In this document: piece after piece, positions 26,576 through 49,084 of the stretch | How positions within the stretch are numbered: the stretch's first letter is position 1 | Layout of the letters: every line of letters begins with the position of its first letter | From: Thalassotalea crassostreae | GTDB taxonomy: Bacteria > Pseudomonadota > Gammaproteobacteria > Enterobacterales > Alteromonadaceae | Length of the DNA: 64,000 nucleotides | Assembly: GCF_001831495.1 (NCBI RefSeq) | Contig: NZ_CP017689.1 | Coordinates: 1,984,001-2,048,000 of the forward strand | Direction of reading: 5' to 3' | Notes under the pieces: generated by a model | The model's database searches: none | Told to the model about the DNA's origin: nothing | Seen by the model: only the letters and a program-made list of their open reading frames with translations | Program-made: the position numbers and the translations under genes

Positions 26576-27322
26576 TTGTTACTTTCATCTAGTTTATTTT
26601 TCAAAAATACTTGGTCCTTTTCAGGCAGTACTGAAATTGGTCCAAATAAACAACACAATGAAGATTCTATTGCAATTGATAATAATCATCAATTCGCAAT
26701 AGTATGTGATGGCGTGGGTGGTAATCGTTGTGGCGAAGTTGCTTCAAAAATGGCATGTACATATTTGTCTAATGCGTTAACCAATAAAGCCGAAAGTAGT
26801 AAAACCGAGCTTAAACAGATTCAACTTAAATCCATGCTAAAGAGTTGCCATAAGTATTTACTTGAACACATGCAACTCCATAAAGAAACACAAGGCATGG
26901 CAACAACGCTTGTACTCGCTTTTCGACATAAAAAAAATGCCACCATTGCTTGGGCAGGCGACAGTAGAGCCTACCTTTTAAGAAATGACAAATTAATACA
27001 ACTAAGTCAAGATCATAGTTTTGTTGCCGAAAAGGTTGCACAGGGAGTATTTACAGAAAAGGAAGCTGAGGAGCATTCATTAGCAAACTTAATTACGTCT
27101 GCTCTTGGAGGTAGCACCAATAGCTTAAAACATATTGGTATCGAAACCATCAAACTTAAAAAAAATGACCGACTTATATTGTGTACAGACGGTGTATACG
27201 GCTATATGGCTCAAGCTCAGTTAATGAATGCCGCGAAAATATCGGCGCATGCGCTTACATCACAAGCAATTGATAATGACACTTTAGATAATTGCAGTGC
27301 AATATGCATCGATATAAGCTAA
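26576..27322 (+). CDS. PP2C-family Ser/Thr protein phosphatase
   Basis: Metal-dependent phosphatase of 248 residues, soluble. All PP2C motifs are present: NED at 28-30, CDGVGG at 44-49, GMATTLV at 107-113, AGDSRAYL at 127-134, CTDGVYGYM at 203-211 and DNCSA at 238-242, including the metal-binding aspartates. It starts with a TTG at 26576, preceded by AAAGGAAAAG. It is most like the PppA/Stp1 class that reverses Hanks-type kinases. The natural partners are the kinases at 30.7-36.3 and 46.2-49.1 kb; the Hsp70 gene follows 88 bp downstream on the same strand. Confidence 0.93.
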   Translation: MLLSSSLFFKNTWSFSGSTEIGPNKQHNEDSIAIDNNHQFAIVCDGVGGNRCGEVASKMACTYLSNALTNKAESSKTELKQIQLKSMLKSCHKYLLEHMQLHKETQGMATTLVLAFRHKKNATIAWAGDSRAYLLRNDKLIQLSQDHSFVAEKVAQGVFTEKEAEEHSLANLITSALGGSTNSLKHIGIETIKLKKNDRLILCTDGVYGYMAQAQLMNAAKISAHALTSQAIDNDTLDNCSAICIDIS

Positions 27323-27410
27323 GCAAAAATTAAAAGTACCCACTTCTATGTATTTAGCTAATACAGTATGATAATGGTATAAAACAACTAATAATATACT
27401 CAAAGACATT

Positions 27411-28919
27411 ATGCTTTATTTAGGGATCGACTTAGGCACCACATTCTCGTTAGCCTCTTATATAAATGCGGCCAACCAAGTTGCATTAATACCAGATAAA
27501 TATGACACCAATAACTTCCGCACTCCGTCTGTTGTCCAAATAGGCAGCAATGGCTGCTTTGTAGGTGATGCAGTTGAAGCACAATTGCAAGAGAACCCAA
27601 GCTCAGAACATGTTCGGTTTGTAAAACTAGCTATGGGTGAAGAACAGCATTTTGTTGATCATCAACAACGCCAATGGCGACCTGAAGCAATTTCTGCATT
27701 GATACTTAAAAAGCTCATTAACGATACCACTAGTTTTCTACCCGAAAACCTAGCAGGTGCTGTTGTTACCGTTCCAGCTAATTTTTCAGACAATCAACGT
27801 CAGGCTACAAAGCAAGCTGCTCTTTTAGCTGGAATTCCTAGAGCGACATTGATAGAAGAGCCTATTGCCGCTGCTACATTTTATGGTATGAATGATATCT
27901 CGGGCGATCAAACTTTATTCGTATTTGACTTAGGAGGCGGCACGTTCGATGCCACACTTTTACAAGCAGCTGACGATGGACTATTTGTCCTAGCAACTGA
28001 CGGTCAACATGACTTAGGCGGTAAAACCGTCGATGAAGCAATAATGCAACAAGTAGCTGATGAATACGAACGATTGCATGGCGATGATCCAAGGCAAAAC
28101 AGTACCGCACTAGTACAGCTACGCCAGTTTGCTACCGAAGCAAAGCTAGAACTGTGCAAACCTGGTGTTAACCAAGTTCGTAAAACACTATTGATTAATA
28201 AACGTACTGTTGATTTTTTACTTACCCAAGCGCAGTTCAATCGTTTAGTAGATAAATTAGTAGAACAAGCCATAACCGTATGTGAACGTTGTTTAAGTGC
28301 AGCAAGCATGGACTGGGATTTTGTTGATCATATTCTACTTACCGGCGGCTCAAGTTTATTACCCTTGGTTCGAGAAAAGCTAGCACAACGTACAGACAGA
28401 CCAAAAGACGGTTTAATGTTAAAACAGCCGCATCAAGCTGTTGCTTTTGGCGCAGCGTTAATTGCCAACCAACTATTTAGTGATTCGAGTAATAAAAAAC
28501 AGTTACAACGGGCTACTAGTTGGCAACTAGGCATAAGAGTCGCAGGCAGAGATGGTAAGCCTTGTGTACAGGTAATGATTGATAAAAACCAGCCTGTGCC
28601 AGCCAATAAAACAGTCACTTTCAACACCACCCGCGAAAATCAGCCACGTATGGTTATTGAAGTGGTACAGCAAAAAGACAGTAATGAAGATGAGAAAAGC
28701 TTAGGTTATTTTATTTTTGCGCTACCCGAAAATGCTGCTATTCGTTATGCCGTTGATATAACTCTTGCTTACGATATAGAAGGATTAGTTACAGCAACAG
28801 CCCGTAATCCGAAAACAGGCACTCAGCTAAAGCAAGTGATGGATGAAAATGGCGCAGCTTTAGACGATGAACTAGTAAACCAGAAAGATTGGATCGACCA
28901 TACATTAGTGAACGAATAA
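27411..28919 (+). CDS. Short Hsp70 (DnaK-like) chaperone without lid
   Basis: Protein of 502 residues compared with about 640 in DnaK. The ATPase domain (about 1-357) has DLGTT at 7-11, DLGGGTFD at 173-180 and the GGSS adenosine motif at 312-315. A beta-sandwich substrate domain follows (about 370-500; NQPVPANKTVTF), but the helical lid and the EEVD-like tail are absent. This resembles the HscC/specialised Hsp70 group. It lies behind the PP2C gene, and five J-like domains occur in the kinases of the same island, but no GrpE or canonical J-protein is nearby. Client and partner are inferred, not shown. Confidence 0.92.
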   Translation: MLYLGIDLGTTFSLASYINAANQVALIPDKYDTNNFRTPSVVQIGSNGCFVGDAVEAQLQENPSSEHVRFVKLAMGEEQHFVDHQQRQWRPEAISALILKKLINDTTSFLPENLAGAVVTVPANFSDNQRQATKQAALLAGIPRATLIEEPIAAATFYGMNDISGDQTLFVFDLGGGTFDATLLQAADDGLFVLATDGQHDLGGKTVDEAIMQQVADEYERLHGDDPRQNSTALVQLRQFATEAKLELCKPGVNQVRKTLLINKRTVDFLLTQAQFNRLVDKLVEQAITVCERCLSAASMDWDFVDHILLTGGSSLLPLVREKLAQRTDRPKDGLMLKQPHQAVAFGAALIANQLFSDSSNKKQLQRATSWQLGIRVAGRDGKPCVQVMIDKNQPVPANKTVTFNTTRENQPRMVIEVVQQKDSNEDEKSLGYFIFALPENAAIRYAVDITLAYDIEGLVTATARNPKTGTQLKQVMDENGAALDDELVNQKDWIDHTLVNE

Positions 28920-29762: not shown

Positions 29763-29817
29763 GATATCACCTACTGTTCCCGTTCAACTTTAATAGCAAT
29801 AAACATATCCTATATAA

Positions 29818-30670: not shown

Positions 30671-33442
30671 CTATTTCACTACAACCATGCCACACATTTT
30701 TAAGTAGTTTTGAAAAGGAACTGTTTCAACGAAGTTATCTTTTGTTTTGAAATCAATCTTTTTAGTTACAGAATAATTTTTAGGCTTACCATCGCTCTTT
30801 TTGACAGAATAGGAATAAACGTCATAGTCAAATATAAGTCGAAGGCTATCTCTAACACTTTTATAATCTAATTTAACAGTGCGCCCTTCTTTTAATAACA
30901 TTTTGTAGCCGACTAAATAATCGGTGGTTCTGTACGTTTTCCAGTGCCAAGTTCGTGCGGTTCCATCCCTTTCGTCCCATGTGTCATAAACTGATGTGAT
31001 TTTTTTATCGGCATAATCGTATCCCGTTTCACCCCAGCCCTCCAAAATGCACTGACCGTTCTCATCGAGTTTATGTGTAAAGTTACGGTTAAATCTTGTC
31101 GTTGTTCTTGACCCTTCGTCTGTTCTAACTATCTTTTGACTTCTACCACTTCGATTCAAGTCATATAGATAGTCTTTAGCTTTAGATTTTCGATTCGCAA
31201 TTACCTTTTCCCTTTCTTTTTTGCGTTTAGCCTTTTGTCTTTCCTTTTCTTCCTGTTGCCATCGAGCTTTAACTTGATTCACTTCAGGGGATGAATCAGA
31301 TATGCCCTGACTATAATTTTCATATGATTGTTCATATAACGTTCGGGCCTCACTATATTCCGCAGTATCTAACTTCGCTGTTGCATTCTCATATTGAGAC
31401 AAACCCAGTGTTACAGAGTTAGGGGTGTTTTTTAAGCCATATTTATTTTTATGCGCTTCCCATTTGGTATGAGCTTCCTGAATTATTGGAAGATATTCAA
31501 GAATAACATCAATATTTTCAAATTCTGAATTTAAACTCTGCCAAGAATCGACCACTTCACTTAATGTATTCAGGGCAGACTCCATTTCCTTTTCAGATTT
31601 AGCTAATTTCAACAGAGTTTCGCCTGAAGACTGCTCGCCTTCAATATCAACTATTAGCTGACCGTTTTCTAATCCATCAACCGCTAAAACGTGGTAACTT
31701 TCATGATACCAGGTATCAACATTGTCTCTTTGCGATTGTTGATAATTAGCTTTGACTTGTCGTATCGATTCATCAAAACGCTTTCTTAGCACCTTAATTT
31801 TACCCAGTAACTTTCCTGCTTCTGCTTTTTGTGAGGCAATCAGCTCTTTATCTACTGGCTTCAAAAAGTCTAAATGACCATTTACACCGGCATATCCTAA
31901 GCCACCTATGAACATTAAAACAAACATAACAATGGCAAATTTGTTGGGACCTTTTGTTTGTAGATGGCTACTGCTTGAACTCGCTTTATTCTGAACTCGT
32001 TTTTTGCTTTTTGGTGAAGTGCCCTTTCCATTTTGAATCGCTTGATTAAACGCTGATATATCTGAAAATCGCTTTTCTGCCCGTGGCGATAATGCTTGCA
32101 TGATGGCATCAGCCATAGCTGCAGGAATATCGGCTCTTACCTCACTAATCGGTTCAATTGCACCTGCTGGTACTTCTCCCGTTAATAGCTCGTATGCAAG
32201 TACGGCAACAGCGTACTGGTCAGCTCGGCCGTCAATATTTTCTAGGCCTTTTAGTTGCTCTGGCGCCATATAGTATGCGGTGCCCATTGCCGCACCGGTT
32301 TGAGTGCGTTGGCTGCTCGATTGTAACTGAGCGATACCAAAGTCCATCAACTTAATTTTGCCATCGCTACCAATCCAGATATTTTCTGGCTTTATGTCTC
32401 TGTGCACCGTTGTTTCATGGGCGTTCTTTAGGCCAATGCAAATAGCATCGATGTATTCTTTTACATCGTCAATATCAAATGGTCGACCTACTGTGCTTTG
32501 ATTGTCCATAACCTGACGTAAGTCTTGCCCTTCTAACAGCTCCATTGTTAGAAAATATAAGGTATCACCATCGTCATGTTGGTGGGTTTGTACGTCAAAC
32601 ACATTTACAATATTTGGATGGCTCAACATCGAGCTCACCCGGGCTTCATTTAAAAAACGTTCTAACGCTCGCTCATTTTTGGTTAAACTCGGAAGTAATA
32701 GTTTAATCGCTATATCTTCGCCACGATTTTTGTCAAAGGCACGATAGACTACGCCCATTCCGCCCTGACCAATTAACTCTTTCACTTCATAGCGATTTGC
32801 AATAACTTGCCCTGGCTGTAATTCAACCTGAGGAACATCACTAGGTGATAAGCCAGGTAAATCTGCAAGTTTAGTTTGCGAAAGAACCGAAGATGACTTG
32901 CTTACACTCGCCTTAGTTGGTTCTGGCTGAGACTTTTCAGGTTGTGAGCTTTTTCCTTTACCAAACAAATCATCCAAATTATCCATTTGTTGAGCTAGTG
33001 TTTTGCTGTTGTCGGAACTTTGCTGGTTAAGTACTTGGTAAGCTTGTTCAATTTTATCTAGCACTTTAGCGAATTTTTTCTGTAACGCTGGTGTGGCAGC
33101 CGCTTCCATTTTGGCTAGAACAGAGCTTTTCTTTTGTTGATATTCTCGCGTAACGTCTTCTAAGCGTGCGCTTTCTGGTAGATTAAATGTTTTGTAAGCG
33201 CTTTTAAGATCTGTCGTTACAATACTATTTTGTGATGCTGTAGCGGTTAAACTAGTTAAGGTTAAATAAGCTTGTTCAACTTTATCTAACACCATAGCAA
33301 ATTTCTTAGCTAATGCAGGTGTTGCAGCATTCGCTATTTTTTTATCTAAGTCTGATTTTTTATCACGGTAAGCATTAACTATTTCTTGTTCATTTGCATG
33401 TTCTTTAACACTTAAAATTTTAAACGCAGATTTTTGTTCCAT
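30671..33442 (-). CDS. Membrane Ser/Thr kinase 1 with two J-like domains
   Basis: 923 residues. N-terminus: two J-domain-like modules without HPD (about 1-64 and 78-141). An acidic/serine-rich linker leads to a Hanks-type kinase (about 218-475) with GQGGMGVVY, catalytic Lys247, HRD Asp349, DFG Asp367 and an APE motif, so it should be active. A single TM (about 502-520) precedes a periplasmic part with helical coiled-coil segments and a unique C-terminal domain (from about 800) containing two cysteines. The ATG lies one base after the stop of kinase 2, so the pair is translationally coupled. About 1.34 kb is nearly identical to kinase 2. Presumed antagonist: the PP2C at 26.6 kb. Confidence 0.92.
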   Translation of the reverse strand: MEQKSAFKILSVKEHANEQEIVNAYRDKKSDLDKKIANAATPALAKKFAMVLDKVEQAYLTLTSLTATASQNSIVTTDLKSAYKTFNLPESARLEDVTREYQQKKSSVLAKMEAAATPALQKKFAKVLDKIEQAYQVLNQQSSDNSKTLAQQMDNLDDLFGKGKSSQPEKSQPEPTKASVSKSSSVLSQTKLADLPGLSPSDVPQVELQPGQVIANRYEVKELIGQGGMGVVYRAFDKNRGEDIAIKLLLPSLTKNERALERFLNEARVSSMLSHPNIVNVFDVQTHQHDDGDTLYFLTMELLEGQDLRQVMDNQSTVGRPFDIDDVKEYIDAICIGLKNAHETTVHRDIKPENIWIGSDGKIKLMDFGIAQLQSSSQRTQTGAAMGTAYYMAPEQLKGLENIDGRADQYAVAVLAYELLTGEVPAGAIEPISEVRADIPAAMADAIMQALSPRAEKRFSDISAFNQAIQNGKGTSPKSKKRVQNKASSSSSHLQTKGPNKFAIVMFVLMFIGGLGYAGVNGHLDFLKPVDKELIASQKAEAGKLLGKIKVLRKRFDESIRQVKANYQQSQRDNVDTWYHESYHVLAVDGLENGQLIVDIEGEQSSGETLLKLAKSEKEMESALNTLSEVVDSWQSLNSEFENIDVILEYLPIIQEAHTKWEAHKNKYGLKNTPNSVTLGLSQYENATAKLDTAEYSEARTLYEQSYENYSQGISDSSPEVNQVKARWQQEEKERQKAKRKKEREKVIANRKSKAKDYLYDLNRSGRSQKIVRTDEGSRTTTRFNRNFTHKLDENGQCILEGWGETGYDYADKKITSVYDTWDERDGTARTWHWKTYRTTDYLVGYKMLLKEGRTVKLDYKSVRDSLRLIFDYDVYSYSVKKSDGKPKNYSVTKKIDFKTKDNFVETVPFQNYLKMCGMVVVK
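31772..33112 (-). repeat. Near-identical kinase core block, copy in kinase 1
   Basis: Aligns gap-free to 34542-35882 (offset 2770) with only scattered differences. It covers the second half of J-like module 2, the linker, kinase domain, TM and juxtamembrane helix. Similarity drops abruptly at both edges, showing recent duplication or gene conversion. Confidence 0.9.
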
Positions 33443-33443
33443 T

Positions 33444-36257
33444 CTAATTCACCGTATTACAAGCTTGTGCATACATATCTAAGTTTTTGTCCACAGTTGA
33501 AAAATCAGATGATTCCCAATAAGTTGACTTAGAATCCTTTTTACAATTCCTTGATCCGCAAATACTCGCTGTTAACTTTAACCAGTCTGACTGTTTTTTT
33601 ACCGTTACCGGATTATTTTTCGAAACAAGTACAGTTATAGTGTTGTTTATACTGGAACTACCATCACTCGAGTATGATGTTCGTCGACATTCGGCATAAG
33701 CAGGACTATTAAAATAATCACCACGTCTAATTGGCTCCCAATCTAATCGTTGTTCTCCAGATGCACATCTTGTTGTTCCCTCTCTAGTGTAGGTACTATA
33801 ATATTTCGAATAGTATTTCCGACTTCCTGCAGCTTTTACTGTCAGTTCGCATTGGCCGTTCTGGTTGAAAGATGATGAGTAAGTTAACTTTCCTTTATAA
33901 ACACTTTTAGAGTCGGAATCATAGTCTGTTTCAGAAAAAGATTTAGGTAAATTTTTTAAAGCGGTATCTATTGCCTTTTGTCTTTTCTCTCTTGCTTCAT
34001 TCGCCGCTTTAGCCATTGCCGCTTTTTTCCATTTAGCTTTTGTAGCGGTTACTTCTTTATTTGTATCATCGATCGCTTGCTGATACTTTTCCTGTGATTG
34101 AATTAATAAATCTATACTTTCTACAAATTCACTTTTTGCAATAGACTCCATTGCTTGTTGATTAAGTAAGTCAGCTTCATTTAGAGAACTAGGTATATTT
34201 TGAATTTGATATTTATCTAAATGATTGTTCCATTCATTTATAACAGAATCGACTTTTTGTGCATTGTCCAATATCGTATCGATATGAGCAAAGTTATCAT
34301 TAAGCTTTTGCCAACCGCTAACAGCGCCCTCAAGCGTATCAACAGCAACATCAATCTCTTTGCTATTTTCGGCTGATGTTAATAGCACCTGAGCAGAAGA
34401 TTGCTCGCCTTCCAAGTCAACAATATCATCGCTATTTTCTAAATACTCTACAGCCAAATTATGGTAATTTTCGTAATACCAAAGATCTTTATTATCCTTT
34501 TGGGCCTGCTTATAACTCGCTTTTATATCTCGCATTGATGTATCAAAACGTTTTCTTAGCACCTTAATTTTACCCAGTAACTTTCCTGCTTCTGCTTTTT
34601 GTGAGGCAATCAGCTCTTTATCTACTGGCTTCAAAAAGTCTAAATGACCATTTACACCGGCATATCCTAAGCCACCTATGAACATTAAAACAAACATAAC
34701 AATGGCAAATTTGTTGGGACCTTTTGTTTGTAGATGGCTACTGCTTGAACTCGCTTTATTCTGAACTCGTTTTTTGCTTTTTGGTGAAGTGCCCTTTCCA
34801 TTTTGAATCGCTTGATTAAACGCTGATATGTCTGGAAATCGTTTTTCTGCCCGTGGCGACAATGCTTGCATGATGGCATCAGCCATAGCAGCTGGAATAT
34901 CGGCTCTTACCTCACTAATCGGTTCAATTGCACCAGCAGGTACTTCTCCCGTTAATAGCTCGTAAGCAAGTACCGCAACAGCGTACTGGTCAGCTCGGCC
35001 GTCAATATTATCTAGGCCTTTTAGTTGCTCTGGCGCCATATAGTATGCGGTACCCATTGCCGCACCGGTTTGAGTGCGTTGGCTGCTCGATTGTAACTGA
35101 GCGATACCAAAGTCCATCAACTTAATTTTGCCATCGCTACCAATCCAGATATTTTCTGGCTTTATGTCTCTGTGCACCGTTGTTTCATGGGCGTTCTTTA
35201 GGCCAATGCAAATAGCATCGATGTATTCTTTTACATCGTCAATATCAAATGGTCGACCTACTGTGCTTTGATTGTCCATAACCTGACGTAAGTCTTGCCC
35301 TTCTAACAGCTCCATTGTTAGAAAATATAAGGTATCACCATCGTCATGTTGATGGGTTTGTACGTCAAACACATTTACAATATTTGGATGGCTCAACATC
35401 GAGCTCACCCGGGCTTCATTTAAAAAACGTTCTAACGCTCGCTCATTTTTGGTTAAACTCGGAAGTAATAGTTTAATCGCTATATCTTCGCCACGATTTT
35501 TGTCAAAGGCACGATAGACTACGCCCATTCCGCCCTGACCAATTAACTCTTTCACCTCATAGCGATTTGCAATAACTTGCCCTGGTTGTAATTCAACCTG
35601 AGGTACATCACTAGGTGATAAGCCAGGTAAATCTGCAAGTTTAGTTTGCGAAAGAACCGAAGATGACTTGCTTACACTCGCCTTAGTTGGTTCTGGCTGA
35701 GACTTTTCAGGCTGCGAGCTTTTCCCTTTACCAAACAAATCATCCAAATTATCCATTTGTTGAGCTAGTGTTTTGCTGTTGTCGGAACTTTGCTGGTTAA
35801 GTACTTGGTAAGCTTGTTCAATTTTATCTAGCACTTTAGCGAATTTTTTCTGTAACGCTGGTGTGGCAGCCGCTTCCATTTTATCCAATAATGCTGATTT
35901 CTTTATTTGGAAAGCTTTAGTAATTGCATCTGCAGAATCATCTTCGTTTGCGCCAATTACTTTTAATGCTGTTTGATAGGCCTGTTGATCTGTAGCATTC
36001 TTTTTATCTAGTATATTATGTTCACTTGCAGCATTAGTTGCTTTCTTGGTATTGGTAATAGCGCCTTCAGTAATCAAATTGTGAGCTTGTTCTATTTTGG
36101 TAAGTACCGTTTGAAACTTTTTTGCAAGCGCTGGCGTCGCAGCCGACTCAATCTTCGCTTTTAGATCATTACTCTTTTGTTGATATGCTAATTCAATCTC
36201 TTGTTTATTTGCATTTTCAGTTAAACTGAGTACTTTAAATGCGCTATGTTTGTCCAT
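33444..36257 (-). CDS. Membrane Ser/Thr kinase 2 with two J-like domains
   Basis: 937 residues, same layout as kinase 1 with a 15-residue offset: J-like modules at about 1-64 and 92-156, kinase domain about 233-490 (Lys262, HRD Asp364, DFG Asp382), TM about 517-535 and periplasmic coiled coils. Its C-terminal domain differs from that of kinase 1 and has six cysteines (for example NGQCELTV, TTRCASGE, AECRRTS, CGSRNC, QACNTVN), suggesting disulfides in the periplasm. It is downstream of a 42-codon gene and the FHA-like genes on the same strand. Ligand and substrates unknown. Confidence 0.92.
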   Translation of the reverse strand: MDKHSAFKVLSLTENANKQEIELAYQQKSNDLKAKIESAATPALAKKFQTVLTKIEQAHNLITEGAITNTKKATNAASEHNILDKKNATDQQAYQTALKVIGANEDDSADAITKAFQIKKSALLDKMEAAATPALQKKFAKVLDKIEQAYQVLNQQSSDNSKTLAQQMDNLDDLFGKGKSSQPEKSQPEPTKASVSKSSSVLSQTKLADLPGLSPSDVPQVELQPGQVIANRYEVKELIGQGGMGVVYRAFDKNRGEDIAIKLLLPSLTKNERALERFLNEARVSSMLSHPNIVNVFDVQTHQHDDGDTLYFLTMELLEGQDLRQVMDNQSTVGRPFDIDDVKEYIDAICIGLKNAHETTVHRDIKPENIWIGSDGKIKLMDFGIAQLQSSSQRTQTGAAMGTAYYMAPEQLKGLDNIDGRADQYAVAVLAYELLTGEVPAGAIEPISEVRADIPAAMADAIMQALSPRAEKRFPDISAFNQAIQNGKGTSPKSKKRVQNKASSSSSHLQTKGPNKFAIVMFVLMFIGGLGYAGVNGHLDFLKPVDKELIASQKAEAGKLLGKIKVLRKRFDTSMRDIKASYKQAQKDNKDLWYYENYHNLAVEYLENSDDIVDLEGEQSSAQVLLTSAENSKEIDVAVDTLEGAVSGWQKLNDNFAHIDTILDNAQKVDSVINEWNNHLDKYQIQNIPSSLNEADLLNQQAMESIAKSEFVESIDLLIQSQEKYQQAIDDTNKEVTATKAKWKKAAMAKAANEAREKRQKAIDTALKNLPKSFSETDYDSDSKSVYKGKLTYSSSFNQNGQCELTVKAAGSRKYYSKYYSTYTREGTTRCASGEQRLDWEPIRRGDYFNSPAYAECRRTSYSSDGSSSINNTITVLVSKNNPVTVKKQSDWLKLTASICGSRNCKKDSKSTYWESSDFSTVDKNLDMYAQACNTVN
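34542..35882 (-). repeat. Near-identical kinase core block, copy in kinase 2
   Basis: Partner of 31772-33112; 1341 bp without gaps. The borders fall inside J-like module 2 and just after the TM-proximal helix. Confidence 0.9.
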
Positions 36258-36442: not shown

Positions 36443-37480
36443 TTAGCAAAACGCTCTCAAAATTGAGTCTGAAAACTTAAACAATGATGCCTCACCTATT
36501 ACAACCCAGCCTTGTTTACGCTTTGATAAAGAGGGGTCATTAACTATTTGCATTGGACCAGAGCCGTTTACATGCCTTACTTCGTGGTTATCTGATTTGT
36601 CGTAATAAATCCAAGCACCATCTTCATATACAACCTCGCCTTGTAATTCATCTAAAGCAGGATCTGGAATGAAAATATCACATTCGTCAGAGCAACCTAT
36701 GGTAATACGACTATTTTTTGAGAATTCAAATTGCTCACCGTCAACCTCAATTATCAGCTTATTACTCAGAGGTTGAGGCGACTCATTGTTTTGAGGTATT
36801 TCCTCTTGTTCATCAGTTACATTATCTTCTTTTTCGTCCTTATCATCGTCAGGTTCGCCAAAAATCAAACCATAAACAACACTCAATACTATCAATACAC
36901 CAGGTGCCATAATTAAAAGATAAAACCAAAGCTCACCACCGTGTTTATGTTCATAAATAACTAATATATTATCCGCTAAGGTGATTCCTTCGAATTGATT
37001 TACCTGGTCGATTTCTTTTTGATACAGGTTATCGATAGTGATGCTCTTAGCCTCCCCATCTATCACATTGCCAGAAGACATATATTTATCCATATAAGAC
37101 TCCAACTTATCAACAGTGATAGTTGGAGACAGCCTTATCAACATAGATGTTTTAACTTCTTCTCCATTTTGCCACTTTTGGTATTCGCTTTCATTCAGCA
37201 CTGGTGCCACTATAACCGTGATATCTTTTTTGTTATCAGCAACCCCATAGTCACCCGCTAGACGATTTTTACCTTCAAACTCATATTCATAGGTGTATCC
37301 ACCCGTGAATTTTGCATTTTTAACGGCTATAAATGACAGTTCTTTATCTTTAACGTTTACCTGGTCAACATGAATTGGCTCTATCTGAGAAAATTGAAAG
37401 TTTTCATATAAACCTTTACCACCTTCCCACACTCCTAAGCCTACGAGGTACAGTAACCCTAAACCTAATAAGAATTGCAT
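36443..37480 (-). CDS. Two-TM protein with degenerate FHA-like C-terminal domain
   Basis: 345 residues. TM1 at the N-terminus (about 2-18), a periplasmic domain of about 160 residues, TM2 at 184-208, an acidic linker (DDDKDEKEDN) and a cytosolic FHA-like beta-sandwich (about 240-345). The usual FHA motif (GR...S..H) is replaced by ITIGCSDECDIFIPDPALDELQ: the phosphothreonine-contacting Arg is Cys, and Ser/His are missing. It may bind something other than pThr. The gene follows the larger FHA-like gene by 45 bp on the same strand and precedes the kinases. Confidence 0.75.
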   Translation of the reverse strand: MQFLLGLGLLYLVGLGVWEGGKGLYENFQFSQIEPIHVDQVNVKDKELSFIAVKNAKFTGGYTYEYEFEGKNRLAGDYGVADNKKDITVIVAPVLNESEYQKWQNGEEVKTSMLIRLSPTITVDKLESYMDKYMSSGNVIDGEAKSITIDNLYQKEIDQVNQFEGITLADNILVIYEHKHGGELWFYLLIMAPGVLIVLSVVYGLIFGEPDDDKDEKEDNVTDEQEEIPQNNESPQPLSNKLIIEVDGEQFEFSKNSRITIGCSDECDIFIPDPALDELQGEVVYEDGAWIYYDKSDNHEVRHVNGSGPMQIVNDPSLSKRKQGWVVIGEASLFKFSDSILRAFC

Positions 37481-37525: not shown

Positions 37526-39169
37526 TTAAACGGTTCCTAACTTTAAGCCAATTTCACACCCAGATAACGACAATTCAATGTTATCTTTCACCTTTAATAA
37601 TTGGTGCGCTTCAATTTCTCTCCACTCGCTATTTGAACTAGCAGCTCTAAACTTAATATTGTCTTCTTGAGTTTTATTCACCACGTACCAGTCATTACCA
37701 TCAAAATGAAGATCAGCTTGGTGCTCTTCCAACATTGGATCCGCAATAAAAATATCAGCCTTGTCTGAGCAGCCAATAGATGTATTAAAAGCTTGCCCTT
37801 GATAACCTTCAACTTTTACCTGCTCATCCTCTGTGAGAACGGTTATAGAAACTCGTTGAGTGCTTTTCACATCGGGTGACTGAACAGTGTCCTGAGTGGT
37901 ACCTTTAACCAAGTTTCCCTGTTTATCGAATGAGTTTTCAACTAAGCTTAACAGCCCTGAAGCATATACTTTGTTCTCACGACTAAAAATGGTACTTATT
38001 AACATAATCCATCCTATAATAGGAATGATAACTGCTATGGCCATTTTCCCTTGTGATGACATTTCAGGGTGAAACGTCAGTTCATTTTTATTGGTAAAAC
38101 GAATGCGAACTGCCTTGCCATTTTGACGAACTACAAGCAAAGACTTGTGCACACCCCAACCATCTTGCACCCTAGCTTCAATGTTTGAACTTAAAAATGT
38201 TTGTAAAACATCTTTATCAGGCAAATTGTCAAATTGAAGTTTTTTAGTATTACTTTTAGTGCCTTGAATAAGATTCGATTCTAAATGCTGAGGCTCTACT
38301 CGGGAGTTCATGCTATTCGAATTAATTGAGTTTTGACTAGAAATTTTATCTTGCTCACCTGAGAGAAAGCTATTACCTTCAGCTTTTTTAGCAATAAATG
38401 CTGCAATAAAAAACAATACACCTACACTAGCAAACATGAAGAAGGTCTTTTCACGTATTGAATACATTGAAAGAGCCCAGCCAACAAAGGTAAGAGCAAG
38501 CGCGCCATTTATATTCCACAGTATTCTTGCTTGCGAAACGCTATTTTTTAATTTGACTTGAACCAAAGAATACAAGCTAATAACACTAATTAATATTGGT
38601 AGCCAGAATGCTGCTTTTAGACCTTCGATTAACTCTATGATGTCGAAATTAGAATCATCCAAAATTCCCCATGAATACCAAGTCGGGTAACAAATCGCCA
38701 ATACCGCGATGGCTATAGAGATGTATTCAAGTTTTTTATTAGTGGCTGATTGGCTGTCTTCACTATGATATAGTTTTTGAGAATTATTTATACTCGCAAC
38801 ATGAACTTTATGGGCGCAATATGCAGTAACAACAAACAGAATATTCGCGAATATGAAAATGCTATAAAACGGATAAAACCCGTCATCGATTATTGCCTTA
38901 GACCAAAATACAAGTCCTAATACACCAGCTCCGACCCATATATTACGAGCAACATTCATACTCGTACCTACTATGGTGGCAATTAACGCAAAACAAGCAA
39001 TTGGCAAGCTCGCATGTAATATCCAGGCATACCACTCTAGGTATTCAAAATGCTCAGCCAACCCAATACCTTCAGCTTGTAGGTAAAGAAAAAAAGAAAC
39101 TTCTTCCCATACCAGCGGTGCAATACCCAAGATCCCAAGTATAATGACGATCTTTTTCGACATATTCAT
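37526..39169 (-). CDS. Polytopic membrane protein with degenerate FHA-like domain
   Basis: 547 residues. About eight hydrophobic segments in the first 265 residues, one more near 378-398, a soluble loop between them (KSLLVVRQNGKAVRIRF), and a C-terminal FHA-like domain (about 450-547). Its motif SIGCSDKADIFIADPMLEEHQ parallels that of the neighbouring 345-residue protein: Cys replaces the conserved Arg and Glu replaces the Ser, although a His is kept in EEHQADL. Function unknown. It is upstream of the smaller FHA-like gene and follows the dynamin-like gene on the same strand. Confidence 0.72.
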   Translation of the reverse strand: MNMSKKIVIILGILGIAPLVWEEVSFFLYLQAEGIGLAEHFEYLEWYAWILHASLPIACFALIATIVGTSMNVARNIWVGAGVLGLVFWSKAIIDDGFYPFYSIFIFANILFVVTAYCAHKVHVASINNSQKLYHSEDSQSATNKKLEYISIAIAVLAICYPTWYSWGILDDSNFDIIELIEGLKAAFWLPILISVISLYSLVQVKLKNSVSQARILWNINGALALTFVGWALSMYSIREKTFFMFASVGVLFFIAAFIAKKAEGNSFLSGEQDKISSQNSINSNSMNSRVEPQHLESNLIQGTKSNTKKLQFDNLPDKDVLQTFLSSNIEARVQDGWGVHKSLLVVRQNGKAVRIRFTNKNELTFHPEMSSQGKMAIAVIIPIIGWIMLISTIFSRENKVYASGLLSLVENSFDKQGNLVKGTTQDTVQSPDVKSTQRVSITVLTEDEQVKVEGYQGQAFNTSIGCSDKADIFIADPMLEEHQADLHFDGNDWYVVNKTQEDNIKFRAASSNSEWREIEAHQLLKVKDNIELSLSGCEIGLKLGTV

Positions 39170-42158: not shown

Positions 42159-43001
42159 TTATTGCTTATTGTTATAGACGGTCATTTTTGCATGTTGCTT
42201 CAAAGTATTTCCTAACTCACACCACTGTGACTTAGTTGAGGGGTTAAATACAATCATTTCCGCTGGATATTTCTTTACAAGATCATTAAATCTTTGCTTT
42301 AGTGTAGCAAGCTGTTGAGCGCTATTTTCGCTATTACAGTTTTTTTTATTTAACGCTAATGCTGCCACCGCCAAAAAGGCAAACTCTTCTGCGGGTTTAG
42401 CAGGGGTGCCAATCTCTTGTGTCCAACCTAAATAGACAGCTAAATACATTTCCCAAGCAAACACAGGTACAGCATTACTGGCTAATACGGGCGCAGATTG
42501 TTGCTGGCCTTTTAGTAATGAAGTTGGCGCGGTTAATGGCTCAGTACTTAATGAATCGGCATTTACTTGCTCTGTAGAATTATTTTTTTCGGCAAGCAAT
42601 TCACCTTGCGGAGTTTGATTATTAAACCAGAAAACCAATACCGTAACACAAGCAAATGACGCGGCACTGGCAATAATATTGCGCCACTTATTGCGAACAT
42701 TAATGTCTTTACCTATATCTTTACCTGCACCCTTGCTCTTATCATTTAAGGTCTGCTCTTGTGCCTTTTTTGCTTCTAAACAATGTAACCATTGCTGCCT
42801 AAGAGCACTTTGGCTAGCTAGTGCGGTTTTAAAGACTAAATGTTGTTCAGCGCTAAGTTGCTTATCAACATAAGCGGCTAACACACTGTCCATATCATTA
42901 AAATCTGCAAACAGCTTTGTATCGGTTAACACTGAACTACGTTTTTGCTTAGCCAACACATTAGCAATCATATCTATAGAGTCATTACTTTGCTGTTTCA
43001 T
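42159..43001 (-). CDS. Single-TM protein, probable anti-sigma factor
   Basis: 280 residues. A cytosolic N-terminal about 100 residues contains an anti-sigma-like helical segment (MDSVLAAYVDKQLSAEQHLVF), followed by one TM (about 106-126) and a periplasmic part of about 150 residues with two cysteines (KKNCNSE, SQWCELG). It lies 20 bp after the sigma-like gene. The anti-sigma role is inferred from this pairing and topology; there is no clear zinc-binding ZAS motif (HxxxCxxC). Confidence 0.6.
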   Translation of the reverse strand: MKQQSNDSIDMIANVLAKQKRSSVLTDTKLFADFNDMDSVLAAYVDKQLSAEQHLVFKTALASQSALRQQWLHCLEAKKAQEQTLNDKSKGAGKDIGKDINVRNKWRNIIASAASFACVTVLVFWFNNQTPQGELLAEKNNSTEQVNADSLSTEPLTAPTSLLKGQQQSAPVLASNAVPVFAWEMYLAVYLGWTQEIGTPAKPAEEFAFLAVAALALNKKNCNSENSAQQLATLKQRFNDLVKKYPAEMIVFNPSTKSQWCELGNTLKQHAKMTVYNNKQ

Positions 43002-43021: not shown

Positions 43022-43870
43022 CTATTCACTATGACCATTTACAGATTCTACAATTAGCCCTAATTCGATTAACGCAGTATGTAATTGCTGCCTAACAGAG
43101 GTTAATTTTCTCTGTACTGATGCCGCACTAATGTTTAGCAAGTCAGCAACTTTTCTGCTCGACAAGCCGTCTTCATAACTTAATGCTAATAATAAACGGT
43201 CGTCGTTATTAATATTTATCTGCTCAGCCAGTTTAGCTAAGGCATCGTTAGCATTAGACGGACAAGTTTGCTGGTTGCTGCTAGCTTTTTGCTCAGCAGA
43301 GTTGATTAATTCGCTAAGTAACGCTAGTGCATTTTGACGTTGGTTGTTGGCAATAGCTTGCTCTAATTGCTCTGAACTATCATCTGGCAGTTGCTCTAAG
43401 CCAAGTTCTGTGGTGCAGCACTCACTAAAACCTGGTTCACCACAACGAGGTATACGTTGTTTTATGGTTTTAATGGCATTAGCAATATAACCAGGTTGAA
43501 AATCATCTTTAAGCTTTTGTTCGATAAGCTCTGGCCATTGGCGCTCAAGACACAACATGCGCCATAGCTTTACCCAAGACGTACCTAAATCTTGTAACCA
43601 AACTGGTGGGCGTGGGCGGCCAAATTTGCGACGAGAAAAATCTTCGATTAACCGACTTGCCACAGAGTAGGCAAATGTTTCGGGTTTGCTGTTGCCAGAA
43701 AAGCTTAGTAGTCGTTGCCAGTTATCTGCCGATAACATCTCAATAATCTCGGTAACAGCTTCTTCGGCGAGCGCTGGTTGTACAAAACGTTTTGACGTCA
43801 TCGCATTTAACTGTCTAAAAAAACGTTCTGTTAAAATCACAGCTGTCCAATCAATCGTTGTCCCTGACAA
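43022..43870 (-). CDS. Sigma-70-family-like regulator (divergent)
   Basis: 282 residues. The C-terminal about 60 residues form a sigma region-4 helix-turn-helix: LLLALSYEDGLSSRKVADLLNISAASVQRKL. An N-terminal helical part (FAYSVASRLIEDFSRRKFGRP) may be a region-2 equivalent, but an unusual cysteine-containing insert (IPRCGEPGFSECC) separates them. The start is a TTG at 43870 with AAGGA ten bases upstream. It is followed at once by a probable anti-sigma gene and an LPP20-like lipoprotein, suggesting envelope-signal control of this island; the regulon is unknown. Confidence 0.68.
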   Translation of the reverse strand: MSGTTIDWTAVILTERFFRQLNAMTSKRFVQPALAEEAVTEIIEMLSADNWQRLLSFSGNSKPETFAYSVASRLIEDFSRRKFGRPRPPVWLQDLGTSWVKLWRMLCLERQWPELIEQKLKDDFQPGYIANAIKTIKQRIPRCGEPGFSECCTTELGLEQLPDDSSEQLEQAIANNQRQNALALLSELINSAEQKASSNQQTCPSNANDALAKLAEQININNDDRLLLALSYEDGLSSRKVADLLNISAASVQRKLTSVRQQLHTALIELGLIVESVNGHSE

Positions 43871-44084: not shown

Positions 44085-45437
44085 ATGACACTCTCAGCTA
44101 TCCGTTTGTTTTTGCTTAGTGCAATAGTACCGCTTTCCTTAAATGCTTTTGCTGACAATAAAAAGAGCAATGAAGAATTTGATCATAAACAGTCATTCAA
44201 TCTTTTCAATCAACAGACAAAACAAACGTTTTCTGCATTCAGTGCCGCCAATGAAAAGTCTTACAACGAAGCATTCATCAGTGCCTGGCAAGAATTTAAT
44301 CAGGCCATAGTTGAACCTGTTCCCAATATGCCTAAACCTAAAACGCAGCCTTTTGTTTCATCATCTCAAAAAACCGAAACATCCAGCAAGACTTCTAAAT
44401 CGACACACGTTCAGCAACAAAAGGTACATTTAAGCTATCAAGGGTTTTATGGCCATACATTAGTTCAATTGCCACTAACATCACTACCAAAACTTAGTAA
44501 TATCACAACACGAGCCTTGCGAACCTTTCGACAACAAGCATTGCATAACAGCAACTTTAACGAACTATTAAGCTTTTTAGCCTTTATGCAACAGCGAACT
44601 GAAGCGAAAACATACGCGACGGTCTTATTAAGTAAGCAAATATGTAAGCAGTATTATGCGGGTAATGCTGCCATTGCTTGCGCTTGGGTTTTAAACCAAA
44701 GTAGAGGATCAGATGTACGGCTTGGGATGCGCGATAAACAACTTTTATTGTTAGCAGCAAGTAGCCAACAATGGTACGAGCGCCCGTTCTTTAACGTGCA
44801 AAACCAGCGATTTTATGTGGTCAATCACAATGATTACCAACGCAGTGTCGGGCCCACGCAGCTTCAAACTCAAGGACATGGTGATGCCACAAAAGACGTA
44901 ACTATTGCACTAAGTAGTGAGCTAAATCCTGCGCTTAAAAATACTATTAAGGTTATGCGCTTTAAACAACAATTAACCATAGACAGTGACCATCTTGCCT
45001 TTTTATATCAGCTGCCGCAATTGCACATAAGTGATTATTTAAATGACAACATTCCAGGTTATATAAAGAAACAAATAACTCCTTGGATAACAAACATGGC
45101 AGCTAATAACATGGATAGGTTTACGACTCTATTAAGCGAATTACAAACATTACCTTATCAAATTGACGATACTCAATTTGGCTATGAAAAACCGTTGACT
45201 TTAACCGAGCTTTTATACTTTCCATATAACGACTGTGAAGACCGCGTCTATGCGATGGCGGCGATAAATAAGCAGTGGCTAGGTTTAGAGTTAGCCGCGC
45301 TTTATTATCCAGGGCATTTAAGTGCAGCGATAAAAATAAATGACCAATGGCTCGAAGCCGATCCAACCTACCAAGGGGCAAGCATTGGCATGCGCCAACC
45401 GGCGTATAAAAACCATGAACCAGAGTTTTTCTTTTAA
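44085..45437 (+). CDS. Secreted transglutaminase-like protein
   Basis: 450 residues with a signal peptide (LFLLSAIVPLSLNAFA). The N-terminal two-thirds is not recognised. The C-terminal part looks like a transglutaminase/papain-like fold: Cys384 in YNDCEDRVYAM, His411 in YPGHLSAAI and Asp426 in LEADPTYQG are in the order and spacing of the Cys-His-Asp triad. It may be a protease, amidase or non-catalytic scaffold in the periplasm. It is divergent from the sigma-like gene and is followed 23 bp later by the KAE-repeat gene. Confidence 0.72.
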   Translation: MTLSAIRLFLLSAIVPLSLNAFADNKKSNEEFDHKQSFNLFNQQTKQTFSAFSAANEKSYNEAFISAWQEFNQAIVEPVPNMPKPKTQPFVSSSQKTETSSKTSKSTHVQQQKVHLSYQGFYGHTLVQLPLTSLPKLSNITTRALRTFRQQALHNSNFNELLSFLAFMQQRTEAKTYATVLLSKQICKQYYAGNAAIACAWVLNQSRGSDVRLGMRDKQLLLLAASSQQWYERPFFNVQNQRFYVVNHNDYQRSVGPTQLQTQGHGDATKDVTIALSSELNPALKNTIKVMRFKQQLTIDSDHLAFLYQLPQLHISDYLNDNIPGYIKKQITPWITNMAANNMDRFTTLLSELQTLPYQIDDTQFGYEKPLTLTELLYFPYNDCEDRVYAMAAINKQWLGLELAALYYPGHLSAAIKINDQWLEADPTYQGASIGMRQPAYKNHEPEFFF

Positions 45438-45811: not shown

Positions 45812-46186
45812 AAAGGAAAAAGTAATCGCTATTCTAATTAAACAAATAGCGCGTTATTTTTTCTAAAGTAAAGCGCCGGTTACGCAAAAATTTATCTAAC
45901 TGAAGTATCATCCACTTTATGCAGTCATGACAGTCTTGCACTGCTTGTGGAATTTTTACTGCCATAACAAATAAACCTTTATAACCCGCAAAAAATCAAA
46001 CCACCTGCGGTGGTTACAACAGCAAAAGCCCTCCCTCAGCCCCTCCAAAGGAGGAGAGAGCAAGCAGAGCTTGCCACAAAGGGCTAAACACCATAGTGCA
46101 AAGGAACGTTAGCTAATGCTAACGAATGGCACAGGATGTGCGACAGCTTTCACACATCCTGTGCTACGCTGCATAAGTAAATCCAT
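45812..46186. repeat. Intergenic cluster of inverted repeats
   Basis: About 375 bp without a gene. Several stems crowd together: AGCCCT (46027-46032) with AGGGCT (46080-46085) encloses CCTCC/GGAGG (46042-46054) and GCAAGC/GCTTGC (46060-46074). Then come CGTTAGC/GCTAACG (46107-46124) and a 12-bp stem GCACAGGATGTG (46129-46140) with its complement at 46153-46164. It could be the 3' structure of kinase 3 mRNA or a decayed repetitive element. Confidence 0.65.
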
Positions 46187-49084
46187 TTACAAATCCTGAA
46201 CCAATCGAAAGCCGAGAATGTTGCCGCGGCCGTCTGCGGTAAACCTGTGACGAGTGGCCGAACGCAAGTGGAGTGGAAAGTCGAGCCAAGAGCCGCCGCG
46301 CACCACACGCCTGTCACAGCTGCCACTTTGCCAGGCACTGCCATTACTCGGCGCGCCGTGGTAGCCATCGTTATAACAATCTTGCACCCACTCCCAAACG
46401 TTACCATGCATGTCGTATAAGCCAAAACCATTGGCACTAAAGCTTTTTACAGGGGCGGTTTTAATATCATCCCATTGACTACCACAGCCACCACAATTAG
46501 CGCGGTTATTACCTACACTATCACCCCAACTGTATTTTGTGCTTGTTCCTGCGCGCGCCGCATACTCCCATTCAGCTTCACTTGGCAAACGGAAAGTGCC
46601 GACGCCCTGTTTATTTAACCAGTTTATGTAATTTTGAATATCGTTCCAGCTAACATGAATCATTGGACGGTTGCCTTTACCCCAGCCAGCGTCACTCACA
46701 TTAGCGCACACACCTGCATCAATACACGGTTGGTATTGATTCCAGGTAACTTCGTGCGCTTGCATATAGAAGGCATTAATCGATACGCGATGGACTGGCT
46801 TTTCAGATCTATTGCCACTGTTTGAGCCCATTTGAAAGTTGCCTACGGGTATCGCGATTAATTGATCCTTAATGCTTGCCTTTAATTTAGCTATACTGGC
46901 TTTTTCCCTAGCGGCTTTTTCTCGAGCTATCTTTTCTTTGGTAGCTTTTTCTCGAGCTATCTTTTCTTTGGTAGCTTTTTCTCGAGCTGTTTTATCTCTA
47001 GCGGACTTTTCATCTGCAGCTTTTTGCCATTTTGCTTTAACCGAGGCTATTTGATCTTGACAGCACCCTTTCGCTTTTATAAATAAATCATGCGCTTTAA
47101 TCCATTCTTGTTTTGCTATTAACAGCTTGCCAGCCTGCGCCTCATTTAGTGCGTTCTTCTCACTCGCATTAGCCTCGGCTATTTCTTGTGGTGCAGTTAA
47201 CTTGTAGGTTTTTTGGTGTTTCAGCCATGCAGATTTAGCCTTAGTAGAGTTGTTTTTAGCCTCATCGTAGTTGCTTGCTAAGTCTATCGCCTTTAAATAA
47301 AGTGCCTGCCCTTCTGAATGAGTCGTTAACGCATCAGCAAATTCACCTTGACGCTCTAATGATTTAGCATCACTAAGCAGTTTTTCTGCTTGTGTTGCTT
47401 CGTTAGCCTTTGCAATTTGTAGGCGTTTTTTGGTCGCTAACCAGTTACTTTTTATTTGCTCACTTTTTTCATTGCTTGATAAGGTATCTTCTGCCGCAGA
47501 AAATTCTTTCCACATTTTTTTATAACCATCATTAACCTTCACAAAGCTGTCTTTTGCTAGCGCTAAGCTATTAGCAGCACCCTCTCGAAGTAATAACTCC
47601 GCTTGGCTTAGCTCTCCTTCAAGCTCAGTGGTGAGCGAGCTTAAAAATAAGTAGTCTTGTGTGATACGGTACCAGTGCTCTAAGTGTTTAAGGTTTGAGG
47701 CGCCTGAGCGCTGCGCATCTTTCACTTCAGATTTAAGATTGCGCTCAGCGTTATCTAAACGCTTTTTATAGGTTTTTATCTCACCTTGAAGTTTCGCTAT
47801 CTCACCTTTTTGTTGGGCGATTAACTCTTTATCAATTGGCTTTAAAAAGTCTAAATGGCCATTAACACCTGCAAAGCCAAGACCGATTACAAACAATAGA
47901 ATGACTGCGGCTATTACGCCTTTGTTCGGACCTTGCTGTGTTAGCTGATGATTAGCTTTTTGGCGCTTTTTTGCTTTACCTTGCTTGCCCTGTGCAATCG
48001 CTTGGTTTAACAAGCTTGCACTGGCAAAACGTTGTTCAGGGTTTACTTCAAGCACTTGGTCTATAACACTGCTTAAGCCTTTACCGATTTCTTTACGGTG
48101 CTCTATAGCACTAGCAAAGCGTCCCATAGGGATTTGGCCGGTAAGCATTTCATACAAAAGCACACCAACGGCATATAAATCGGCCCTTGCATCTACGTCT
48201 TTTCCTTGTAATTGCTCTGGCGCCATATAATACGCGGTTCCCGTGGCAGCGCCGGTTTGTGTGCGCTGAGTGGTGGACATTAATCGTGCAATACCAAAGT
48301 CCATCAGTTTGATTTGACCATTTGGCATTAACCAAATGTTTTCAGGTTTAATATCACGGTGAACTGTAGTTTGATGGGCGTGTTCAAGGGCGGTAAGCAA
48401 TTCACTTATAATGCGTTTTGCTTCATCTATCGGCATGTCTTGTTTAAGGGTGTTTAAGTTAGTTAAATACGCTCTAAGCTCTTGCCCTTCAAGTAACTCC
48501 ATAGTTAAGAAACACAGGTCATTATCTATTTGTACATCAAAAACATTTACAATGTTTGGGTGACTTAACTGGCTTGATAATCGTGCTTCTTCTAGAAAGC
48601 GCTGTTTAGCCGATTCGTTTTTCGTCAGCTGAGGTAATAACATTTTGATGGCAATATCGGCGTCGCGGTTTTTATCAAAAGCGCGATACACCACACCCAT
48701 TCCGCCTTGACCTATAAGCTCTTTTATTTCATAACGATTGGCAATGATATGCCCAGGTTGTAATTCAATTTGCGTGGTATCAACCCCTGCCATACCCGGT
48801 AAGTCGGCAATTTTTGTTTGTGATAAAGGGTTTTGAGACAACGGTGAATTATCTTGAGGAGAATTGGCCGTATTGGTCGACTTTTGGGGTTGTTCTTGCA
48901 GCGACTGGTAAACTAGCGTTAGTTTTTGCAATGCTACTTCAAATTTTTCTGCAAGTGCTGGTGTTTGTGCATTGGCTATTTTATTTTCTAGCTCTGCTTT
49001 TTTTTGTTGATATGCTTGTTCAATATCTTGCTGGTTAGCCTCAGCTTGCAATCCTAATGCTGTTAATGCCGCTTCTTGCTGCAT
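46187..49084 (-). CDS. Membrane Ser/Thr kinase 3 with J-like domain and SUMF1-fold ectodomain
   Basis: 965 residues. One J-like module without HPD (about 1-63), linker, Hanks kinase (about 118-370) with GQGGMGVVY, Lys147, HRD Asp244, DFG Asp262 and APE motifs, TM about 388-406, long periplasmic helices including a charged repeat (AREKATKEKI), and a C-terminal SUMF1/FGE-fold domain (about 745-965; IPVGNFQMGS, FRLPSEAEWEYAARAG, GNVWEWVQD, RGGSW). The cysteine pair needed for formylglycine formation is absent after RGGSW, so the domain probably binds rather than oxidises. The intracellular half resembles kinases 1 and 2, although the DNA is more diverged. Confidence 0.92.
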   Translation of the reverse strand: MQQEAALTALGLQAEANQQDIEQAYQQKKAELENKIANAQTPALAEKFEVALQKLTLVYQSLQEQPQKSTNTANSPQDNSPLSQNPLSQTKIADLPGMAGVDTTQIELQPGHIIANRYEIKELIGQGGMGVVYRAFDKNRDADIAIKMLLPQLTKNESAKQRFLEEARLSSQLSHPNIVNVFDVQIDNDLCFLTMELLEGQELRAYLTNLNTLKQDMPIDEAKRIISELLTALEHAHQTTVHRDIKPENIWLMPNGQIKLMDFGIARLMSTTQRTQTGAATGTAYYMAPEQLQGKDVDARADLYAVGVLLYEMLTGQIPMGRFASAIEHRKEIGKGLSSVIDQVLEVNPEQRFASASLLNQAIAQGKQGKAKKRQKANHQLTQQGPNKGVIAAVILLFVIGLGFAGVNGHLDFLKPIDKELIAQQKGEIAKLQGEIKTYKKRLDNAERNLKSEVKDAQRSGASNLKHLEHWYRITQDYLFLSSLTTELEGELSQAELLLREGAANSLALAKDSFVKVNDGYKKMWKEFSAAEDTLSSNEKSEQIKSNWLATKKRLQIAKANEATQAEKLLSDAKSLERQGEFADALTTHSEGQALYLKAIDLASNYDEAKNNSTKAKSAWLKHQKTYKLTAPQEIAEANASEKNALNEAQAGKLLIAKQEWIKAHDLFIKAKGCCQDQIASVKAKWQKAADEKSARDKTAREKATKEKIAREKATKEKIAREKAAREKASIAKLKASIKDQLIAIPVGNFQMGSNSGNRSEKPVHRVSINAFYMQAHEVTWNQYQPCIDAGVCANVSDAGWGKGNRPMIHVSWNDIQNYINWLNKQGVGTFRLPSEAEWEYAARAGTSTKYSWGDSVGNNRANCGGCGSQWDDIKTAPVKSFSANGFGLYDMHGNVWEWVQDCYNDGYHGAPSNGSAWQSGSCDRRVVRGGSWLDFPLHLRSATRHRFTADGRGNILGFRLVQDL
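46921..46980 (-). repeat. Two perfect 30-bp tandem copies inside kinase 3
   Basis: Positions 46921-46950 and 46951-46980 are identical and encode the ten-residue charged unit (K-A-T-K-E-K-I-A-R-E register) in the periplasmic stalk. A partial third copy flanks them. Confidence 0.92.

Follow-up and report, generated by a model that had tools for sequence, protein, structure and literature searches.

J-like Ser/Thr kinases linked to a lid-less Hsp70 and a pseudo-dynamin in Thalassotalea crassostreae and other bacteria

In Escherichia coli K-12 the yegD-yegI-pphC(yegK)-yegL cluster places an Hsp70-family gene beside a membrane Ser/Thr kinase and a PP2C phosphatase, and PphC dephosphorylates YegI (excerpt of PMC13232886). 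A comparable association is found in an island of Thalassotalea crassostreae, which encodes three Ser/Thr kinases (K1, K2 and K3) with J-like modules at their N-termini, a lid-less Hsp70, a PP2C-type phosphatase and a protein that we call a pseudo-dynamin, since it has a predicted dynamin-like fold and no GTPase P-loop. The window that we analysed is a stretch of 64,000 nucleotides (contig NZ_CP017689.1, positions 1,984,001 to 2,048,000), and the gene set spans around 25.6-54.1 kb of it, which is wider than the 26576-49084 given in the initial annotation; the PP2C and the lid-less Hsp70 do share the island with the kinases, as stated there. YegI is only weakly similar to the island kinases (best E 0.044) and, unlike them, it starts almost directly with the kinase domain (by reading), leaving no room for a J-like module. 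We also take the yeg cluster to have a VWA-type protein in the place of the pseudo-dynamin. The GTPase-centric conflict systems with GAP1-N2 are similar to the island in having HSP70, GrpE and DnaJ-domain partners, or a kinase and a PP2C, and some of them have FGS-domain effectors; nevertheless, their J-domain is on FNIII-repeat proteins and the kinase with PP2C is a separate theme (excerpt of PMC7159879). The excerpt of PMC7159879 makes no mention of a J-like module on a kinase. Among 20 island and flanking proteins there was no Pfam match to GAP1 or vWA, nor to the pairing of GAP1 with a TRAFAC GTPase, a negative that counts for GAP1 only if Pfam includes a model of it; the pseudo-dynamin, too, is unlike the GTPases of those systems in having no P-loop.

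PknB-type receptor kinases with Stp1/IreP PP2C phosphatases have the kinase domain, the single transmembrane (TM) helix and the phosphatase type in common with the island, which adds to them the J-like module and the Hsp70 partner; the PknB_PASTA_kin model scores well below its cut-off on the island kinases. An N-terminal J-domain on a protein kinase is also known from DNAJB1-PRKACA (DNAJ-PKAc), which unlike the island kinases is a human tumour fusion and whose DNAJB1 J-domain presumably keeps the HPD tripeptide. That fusion recruits Hsp70 (excerpt of PMC6533061). Bacterial dynamin-like proteins (IniA, BDLP, LeoA) share their fold with the prediction for the pseudo-dynamin, which differs in lacking the P-loop. 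Pam16/Tim16 has, like the modules, a J-like fold without HPD, and the chain giving the best VIA match with the module model is one that we take to be Pam16/Tim16; unlike the island proteins, it belongs to the eukaryotic mitochondrial import motor, has no kinase fusion and is the partner of an HPD-bearing J protein. A known defence system was rejected, because of 10 island proteins only K1, K3 and the PP2C matched PADLOC, in the kinase and phosphatase domains. In the open-licence literature we found no description of J-like receptor kinases with this Hsp70 and a pseudo-dynamin. The initial statement that no such system was described needs to be qualified by the yegD-yegI-pphC and GAP1-N2 neighbourhoods, which are related precedents. 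The island is a real and apparently undescribed variant system built of known families, for which we infer a mechanism below.

The three kinases carry five N-terminal modules of around 65 residues, two in K1, two in K2 and one in K3, which are 44-56% identical to module 1 of K1. None of the five contains HPD, as the initial annotation had noticed together with their number, and the tripeptide was also absent from all 31 modules that we aligned. The EQAY ending described at first was found in both modules of K1 and in the second of K2, whereas the first module of K2 ends in EQAH and K3 has a different ending. Likewise, the long helix pair became, in a structure model built from the 31 aligned rows, one long helix II (residues 18-37) and a helix III (42-68).

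According to profile comparisons and this model, the modules are J-domain relatives in ancestry and predicted fold. When the 31-module profile was compared with all the chains of the Protein Data Bank (PDB), the first 26 of 83 matches were J-domain proteins or J chimeras (best E 7.6e-5), and J-domain entries also made up almost the whole of the first 26 VIA rows. The alignment of the modules to 14 J-domains with hhalign gave 93%, against 1.75% at most for the controls and 0.38% for the reversed alignment; 6 of these 14 J-domains came from the search of 117 genomes, the own one included, with a profile of the five island modules. That search gave 7 outside matches in 6 genomes, all of them HPD-bearing and, by reading, six DjlA-like proteins and one small DnaJ-like protein. 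The structure prediction and the DnaJ-family comparison, both proposed in the initial annotation, thus point in the same direction, and a generic hairpin is not supported. The weak points are that the Pfam DnaJ model stays below its cut-off with module 1 of K1 (E 0.016 for the whole protein, 0.0014 for the module alone) and matches 5 of the 31 modules at E <= 10, and that Foldseek gave an E of 0.46 for the model.

Regarding the distribution of these kinases, a protein-database search with the N-terminus of K1 returned only K1 and K3, and the set was extended by means of an alignment-based genome scan and a consensus-like query. The scan of genome contigs, with the alignment of the J-like region and the kinase N-lobe as query, gave 23 loci in 16 genomes, mostly of gammaproteobacteria (Alcanivorax, Microbulbifer, Simiduia, Pleionea, Vibrio, Psychromonas and others), with weaker rows in Phaeospirillum, Desulfocapsa and an Anaerolineae metagenome-assembled genome (MAG). 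Of the 16 genomes, 14 had a detectable module, the signal being weak in two (L068; L071/L072); the module was broken by stops in the J-like kinase gene of a Cellvibrionales MAG (L070, around 10000-10150), and none was seen at L073. The 98 protein-database matches to the N-terminal region of a Simiduia kinase, together with K3, made up a set of 99 related kinases. In these the module was detectable in 93 cases, HPD was never present and a hydrophobic segment followed the kinase domain in 96 (by a crude hydropathy test). Tandem modules are atypical, as only one of the 99 proteins has two, namely K1 (K2 was not among the 99).

The linkage of the J-like kinase, the Hsp70 and the pseudo-dynamin is conserved. 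An island-type Hsp70, 41-83% identical over its full length, is encoded in 11 of the 16 genomes, and the other 5 gave only DnaK/HscA-like matches with an identity of 36% or less. Each of the 11 Hsp70 genes shares its contig with a J-like kinase, from adjacent to around 10 kb away, so the two are not unlinked in other genomes, a point that the initial annotation had put forward for checking. The pseudo-dynamin accompanies 11 of the 12 Hsp70 loci (own included) and did not appear in the sequence retrieved for G453. We also searched from the side of the Hsp70, at E <= 1e-95 and with 3-4 candidates scored per genome, in order, class and phylum samples that share some genomes. The subfamily was found in 3 of the 394 order genomes (own, G367 and G419), all three with a J-like protein and a pseudo-dynamin nearby, and at this threshold the 368 class and 397 phylum genomes gave no member besides the own one. 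The K1 search of the order sample found J-like kinases in the own genome, G330 and G367; in G330, an 85%-complete assembly, the order-sample search found no island-type Hsp70. In G419 (L103 16794-19241) the module is joined to a kinase domain that has degenerated (Pkinase E 0.0075, with neither HRD nor DFG in the first 330 residues) and to an FGE-like domain, with the hydrophobic segment kept, and despite this degeneration the pseudo-dynamin is beside the J-like protein and the Hsp70 is near.

The island Hsp70 belongs to a rare lid-less subfamily in which the ATP motifs are intact. It keeps DLGTTFS, DLGGGTFD and GGSSLLP, and its sequence stops after the beta substrate-binding region, the lid being missing in the aligned members. 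We aligned 119 subfamily proteins longer than 470 amino acids (aa), their lengths being 481-592 aa, to 10 DnaK/HscA controls, and the positions are numbered on the own DnaK. These 119 were 118 of the 120 listed matches (269 in all; two short pieces were dropped) and one from L084. In DnaK, HPD contacts R167 and, in the linker, L391; for J residues, Y25, K26 and F47 among them, interactions are described with R167, E217, L391 and L392 (excerpt of PMC13012618). Three of these four positions differ from DnaK in the subfamily: only 12 of 119 proteins have R at position 167 (controls, 10 of 10), position 217 is Y or F in 115 and never E (controls E), and at position 392 there is Q in 100 and L in none (controls L). 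N170 and T173, which we take to be J-docking residues of DnaK as well, have also changed; position 170 is E or D in all 119 and N in none (controls N), and position 173 is V, I or L in 118 and T in one (controls T). Furthermore, the LLLD linker motif, present in the 10 controls, is absent from all 119 proteins, and T199 is kept in every one. Positions 170, 173 and 217 appear to be constrained to new residues instead of drifting, which suggests that this surface may still have a job. Since the loss of HPD and the change of the docking site on the Hsp70 go together, a classical J-stimulated ATPase is unlikely; the initial guess of a binding without canonical ATPase stimulation is therefore strengthened, as the Hsp70 side has changed too.

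YegD of E. coli (L095 3675-5027) likewise has no R at position 167 and no LLLD linker in the alignment, and independence from J-domains may thus extend more widely among the Hsp70 relatives linked to kinases. Two other identities of the island Hsp70 were rejected: an ordinary DnaK or HscA, because the own genome encodes both elsewhere (names by reading), and a YegD-type Hsp70, because YegD matches it at 8e-6 over 83 residues only.

Regarding the kinases themselves, the Pfam kinase domains cover residues 218-441 of K1, 233-456 of K2 and 118-361 of K3, and the glycine loop, IAIK, HRD, DFG and APEQ motifs are kept in the three of them. Behind the kinase domain there is a hydrophobic segment, at around residues 500 (K1), 515 (K2) and 385 (K3), and the FGE-sulfatase-like domain of K3 is at residues 740-962 (Pfam). 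The C-terminal regions of the J-like kinases vary by Pfam accession and are mostly FGE-sulfatase; the other accessions are presumably Sel1, MORN, FKBP and peroxiredoxin or thioredoxin-like domains. Several of these varying domains (FKBP, peroxiredoxin, thioredoxin-like) would be of protein-folding or redox types, which is a hint of envelope proteostasis. The motifs DGVGG and AGDSR are present in the island phosphatase. For the 617-aa pseudo-dynamin, a model built from 10 rows predicted a dynamin/BDLP-like fold (pTM 0.49); the GTPase P-loop was found in none of the 10 homologues, and the gene is often directly before the kinase gene (e.g. L020, L058, L063, L065).

We propose, tentatively and with somewhat less than even confidence, that the modules would be docking arms which hold the kinase together with its dedicated Hsp70, near the pseudo-dynamin and without the classical stimulation of the ATPase, and that the PP2C would oppose the kinase. 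The island would then encode a membrane-anchored kinase-chaperone system. Each kinase has an HPD-less J-like module, which would be cytosolic, a linker bearing the conserved SQTK.ADLP-type motif, an apparently active kinase domain and one predicted TM helix, and its C-terminal region (FGE-sulfatase-like in K3) is predicted outside the cytosol. In the complex held by the module the lid-less Hsp70 would be a stably bound ATP-dependent switch or a holdase on the kinase, without being stimulated to hydrolyse ATP in the classical way; the membrane pseudo-dynamin would probably be part of the same complex and the PP2C would reverse the phosphorylation. We infer the physical binding from linkage and homology, and the switch role of the Hsp70, the membrane topology and the regulation by PP2C are equally putative.

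A more specific form of this proposal, which we consider doubtful, is a private re-engineered lock and key, in which the D35-R167 bridge would be lost, the charge would be partly reversed and the J-like domain would clamp the Hsp70 onto the kinase with no trigger for hydrolysis; this would be a chaperone-gated receptor-kinase system. The idea of a reversed charge arises because position 35 of the module is mostly K or R (65 of the 81 kinases captured by a motif pattern, 18 of the 99 being uncaptured), while the acidic position 170 of the Hsp70 is three residues from 167. The charge pair is a lead and not a result, given that position 35 is A in all five Microbulbifer modules aligned (two in L055 and one each in L058, L060 and L062) and that in the model residue 35 sits inside the lengthened helix II.

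Several observations weigh against docking of the modules on the Hsp70. Position 391 is largely kept (L in 81 of 119, and L, V or I in 111; controls L), and on the module side an aromatic F or Y near the position of F47 is kept in 28 of 31, so that not everything has changed. The contact positions of helix II are unconserved, with Y25 in 11 of 31 modules and A or Q at position 26 in 20, and a canonical J-Hsp70 interface is therefore unlikely. Of the 14 genomes with a module, three (G446, G455 and G458) have no island-type Hsp70, and neither has G457, the genome of the stop-broken module at L070; each of these four genomes is a MAG. Of the 12 Hsp70 loci (own included), 9 have the PP2C next to the Hsp70; it was not found at G444, where the contig ends around 600 bases past the Hsp70, nor at G451 and G456, and there was no PP2C match in the 20-kb stretch of G419. 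Six of the 99 related kinases have no detectable module, although one of them, P0099, seems to start inside the module end and is perhaps truncated. These six retain a linker of the SQTKLADLP or SHTKLADLP type, and three of them appear to share one 409847-nt contig with a 70%-identical Hsp70. Finally, a role independent of Hsp70 has been proposed for other J-like proteins that lack HPD (excerpt of PMC11349236).

Among the alternatives, an arrangement of the Pam16 type survives best, though we think it unlikely. The modules would form pairs, either among themselves or with the canonical J-domain of a protein such as DnaJ or DjlA, and so dimerise or position the kinases, the Hsp70 being a separate component or a client chaperone. 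The lack of HPD and the VIA match fit such a pairing, but a motif scan found no HPD-bearing J-domain in the island or in the related loci fetched, the tandem arrangement is limited to one of the 99 kinases, and the tight linkage of the Hsp70 is left unexplained. Less probable still is a generic scaffold, where the module would bind the pseudo-dynamin or another partner and the Hsp70 would fold or disassemble that complex without touching the module. The presence of the pseudo-dynamin in nearly all the Hsp70 loci, often directly preceding the kinase gene, speaks for it; on the other hand, a J-domain relative beside an Hsp70 would then be a coincidence and the change of the docking site on the Hsp70 would have no explanation. 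The view of the modules as simple helical hairpins, J-like by composition, is rejected as highly improbable on account of the hhalign controls, the J-domain proteins leading the PDB profile and VIA rows, and the exclusively HPD-bearing J proteins matched outside the own genome.

If the modules do hold the kinases with the Hsp70, Ser/Thr kinase signalling would be tied to a dedicated chaperone in bacteria. HPD and its docking site on Hsp70 are highly conserved contacts, and here both are changed while the genes stay linked, a natural experiment on what a J-domain may do without triggering ATP hydrolysis. The proposal is testable with small proteins, i.e. a module of 65-110 aa and an Hsp70 of 500 aa.

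Table 1. Genes and J-like modules of the island (positions in the window).
Feature	Position	Strand	Evidence and relatives
PP2C-type phosphatase (Stp1/IreP-like), adjoins the Hsp70	26576..27322	+	Pfam PP2C_2 1.5e-18; NCBIfam Stp1_PP2C_phos 3.5e-51, below cut-off
Hsp70, 502 aa, lid-less, island subfamily	27411..28919	+	Pfam HSP70 9.6e-80; alignments; motifs
K1, 923 aa: J-like, J-like, Ser/Thr kinase, TM, C-terminal region without Pfam match	30671..33442	-	
K1 J-like module 1, residues 1-66	33245..33442	-	
K1 J-like module 2, around residues 77-142	33017..33214	-	
K2, 937 aa, paralogue of K1, two J-like modules	33444..36257	-	
K2 J-like module 1	36060..36257	-	
K2 J-like module 2	35787..35996	-	
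Membrane protein, weak FHA-like match	36443..37480	-	Pfam FHA E=0.0079, below cut-off; membrane nature by reading
Membrane protein, weak FHA-like match	37526..39169	-	Pfam FHA E=0.0062, below cut-off; membrane nature by reading
Pseudo-dynamin, 617 aa, predicted dynamin/BDLP/mitofusin-like fold, no P-loop, long C-terminal helix	39354..41207	-	
Lipoprotein-like protein, 193 aa	41555..42136	-	Relatives in L052, L057, L055/L058 (last two probably one gene)
Putative anti-sigma-like membrane protein (name from position)	42159..43001	-	Relatives in L051, L052
ECF-type sigma factor	43022..43870	-	NCBIfam sigma70-ECF 2.2e-13; relatives in L051, L052, L055, L057, L060 (75 aa), L066
Recurrent partner, 450 aa, signal-like start	44085..45437	+	Relatives in L051, L052, L055, L057, L066
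K3, 965 aa: J-like, kinase, TM, FGE-sulfatase-like domain	46187..49084	-	Pfam Pkinase 8e-52, FGE-sulfatase 3.3e-60
K3 J-like module	48887..49084	-	
Ala-rich repetitive recurrent partner	50575..52338	+	Matches in L052, L057, L059, L060, L066; low complexity, so identities are weak evidence
Lipoprotein-like recurrent partner, weak DUF4384 match	52350..53375	+	Pfam 5.9e-4, below cut-off; relatives in L052, L057, L058, L059

K1 and K2 are nearly identical from the end of the second J-like module through the kinase domain, and differ in the first module and the C-terminus. Two copies of a repeat family, at 32247-32364 in K1 and 35017-35134 in K2, have 99% identity over 118 nt. This pattern suggests a recent duplication or gene conversion. 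On the minus strand at 53814-53978 (within 53376-54106) lies what is left of a fourth kinase domain, surrounded by stops and with 74% DNA identity to 32150-32314 of K1.

Regarding the borders of the island, the cluster lies between two genes for DAHP synthases (names by reading), which are around 46 kb apart in the own genome. The pair is around 7-27 kb apart in 8 of 12 genus relatives (G001, G002, G004, G006, G008, G009, G010 and G012), around 240 kb apart in G005 and on different contigs in G007 and G011, and G003 has one more distant match only. A partial copy of a CcoG/FixG-like gene, comprising its 3' part, is at the left edge (25215-25514; 78% identical to 54158-54457) and an intact gene of this type is at the right edge (54106-55500), so the two copies bracket the island. 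In 116 other genomes, the five-module profile matched only canonical J proteins. This arrangement suggests that the island may be a recent insertion. Just to its left, at 24004-24801 on the minus strand, there is a transposase-like gene with an integrase core (rve, HTH_21).

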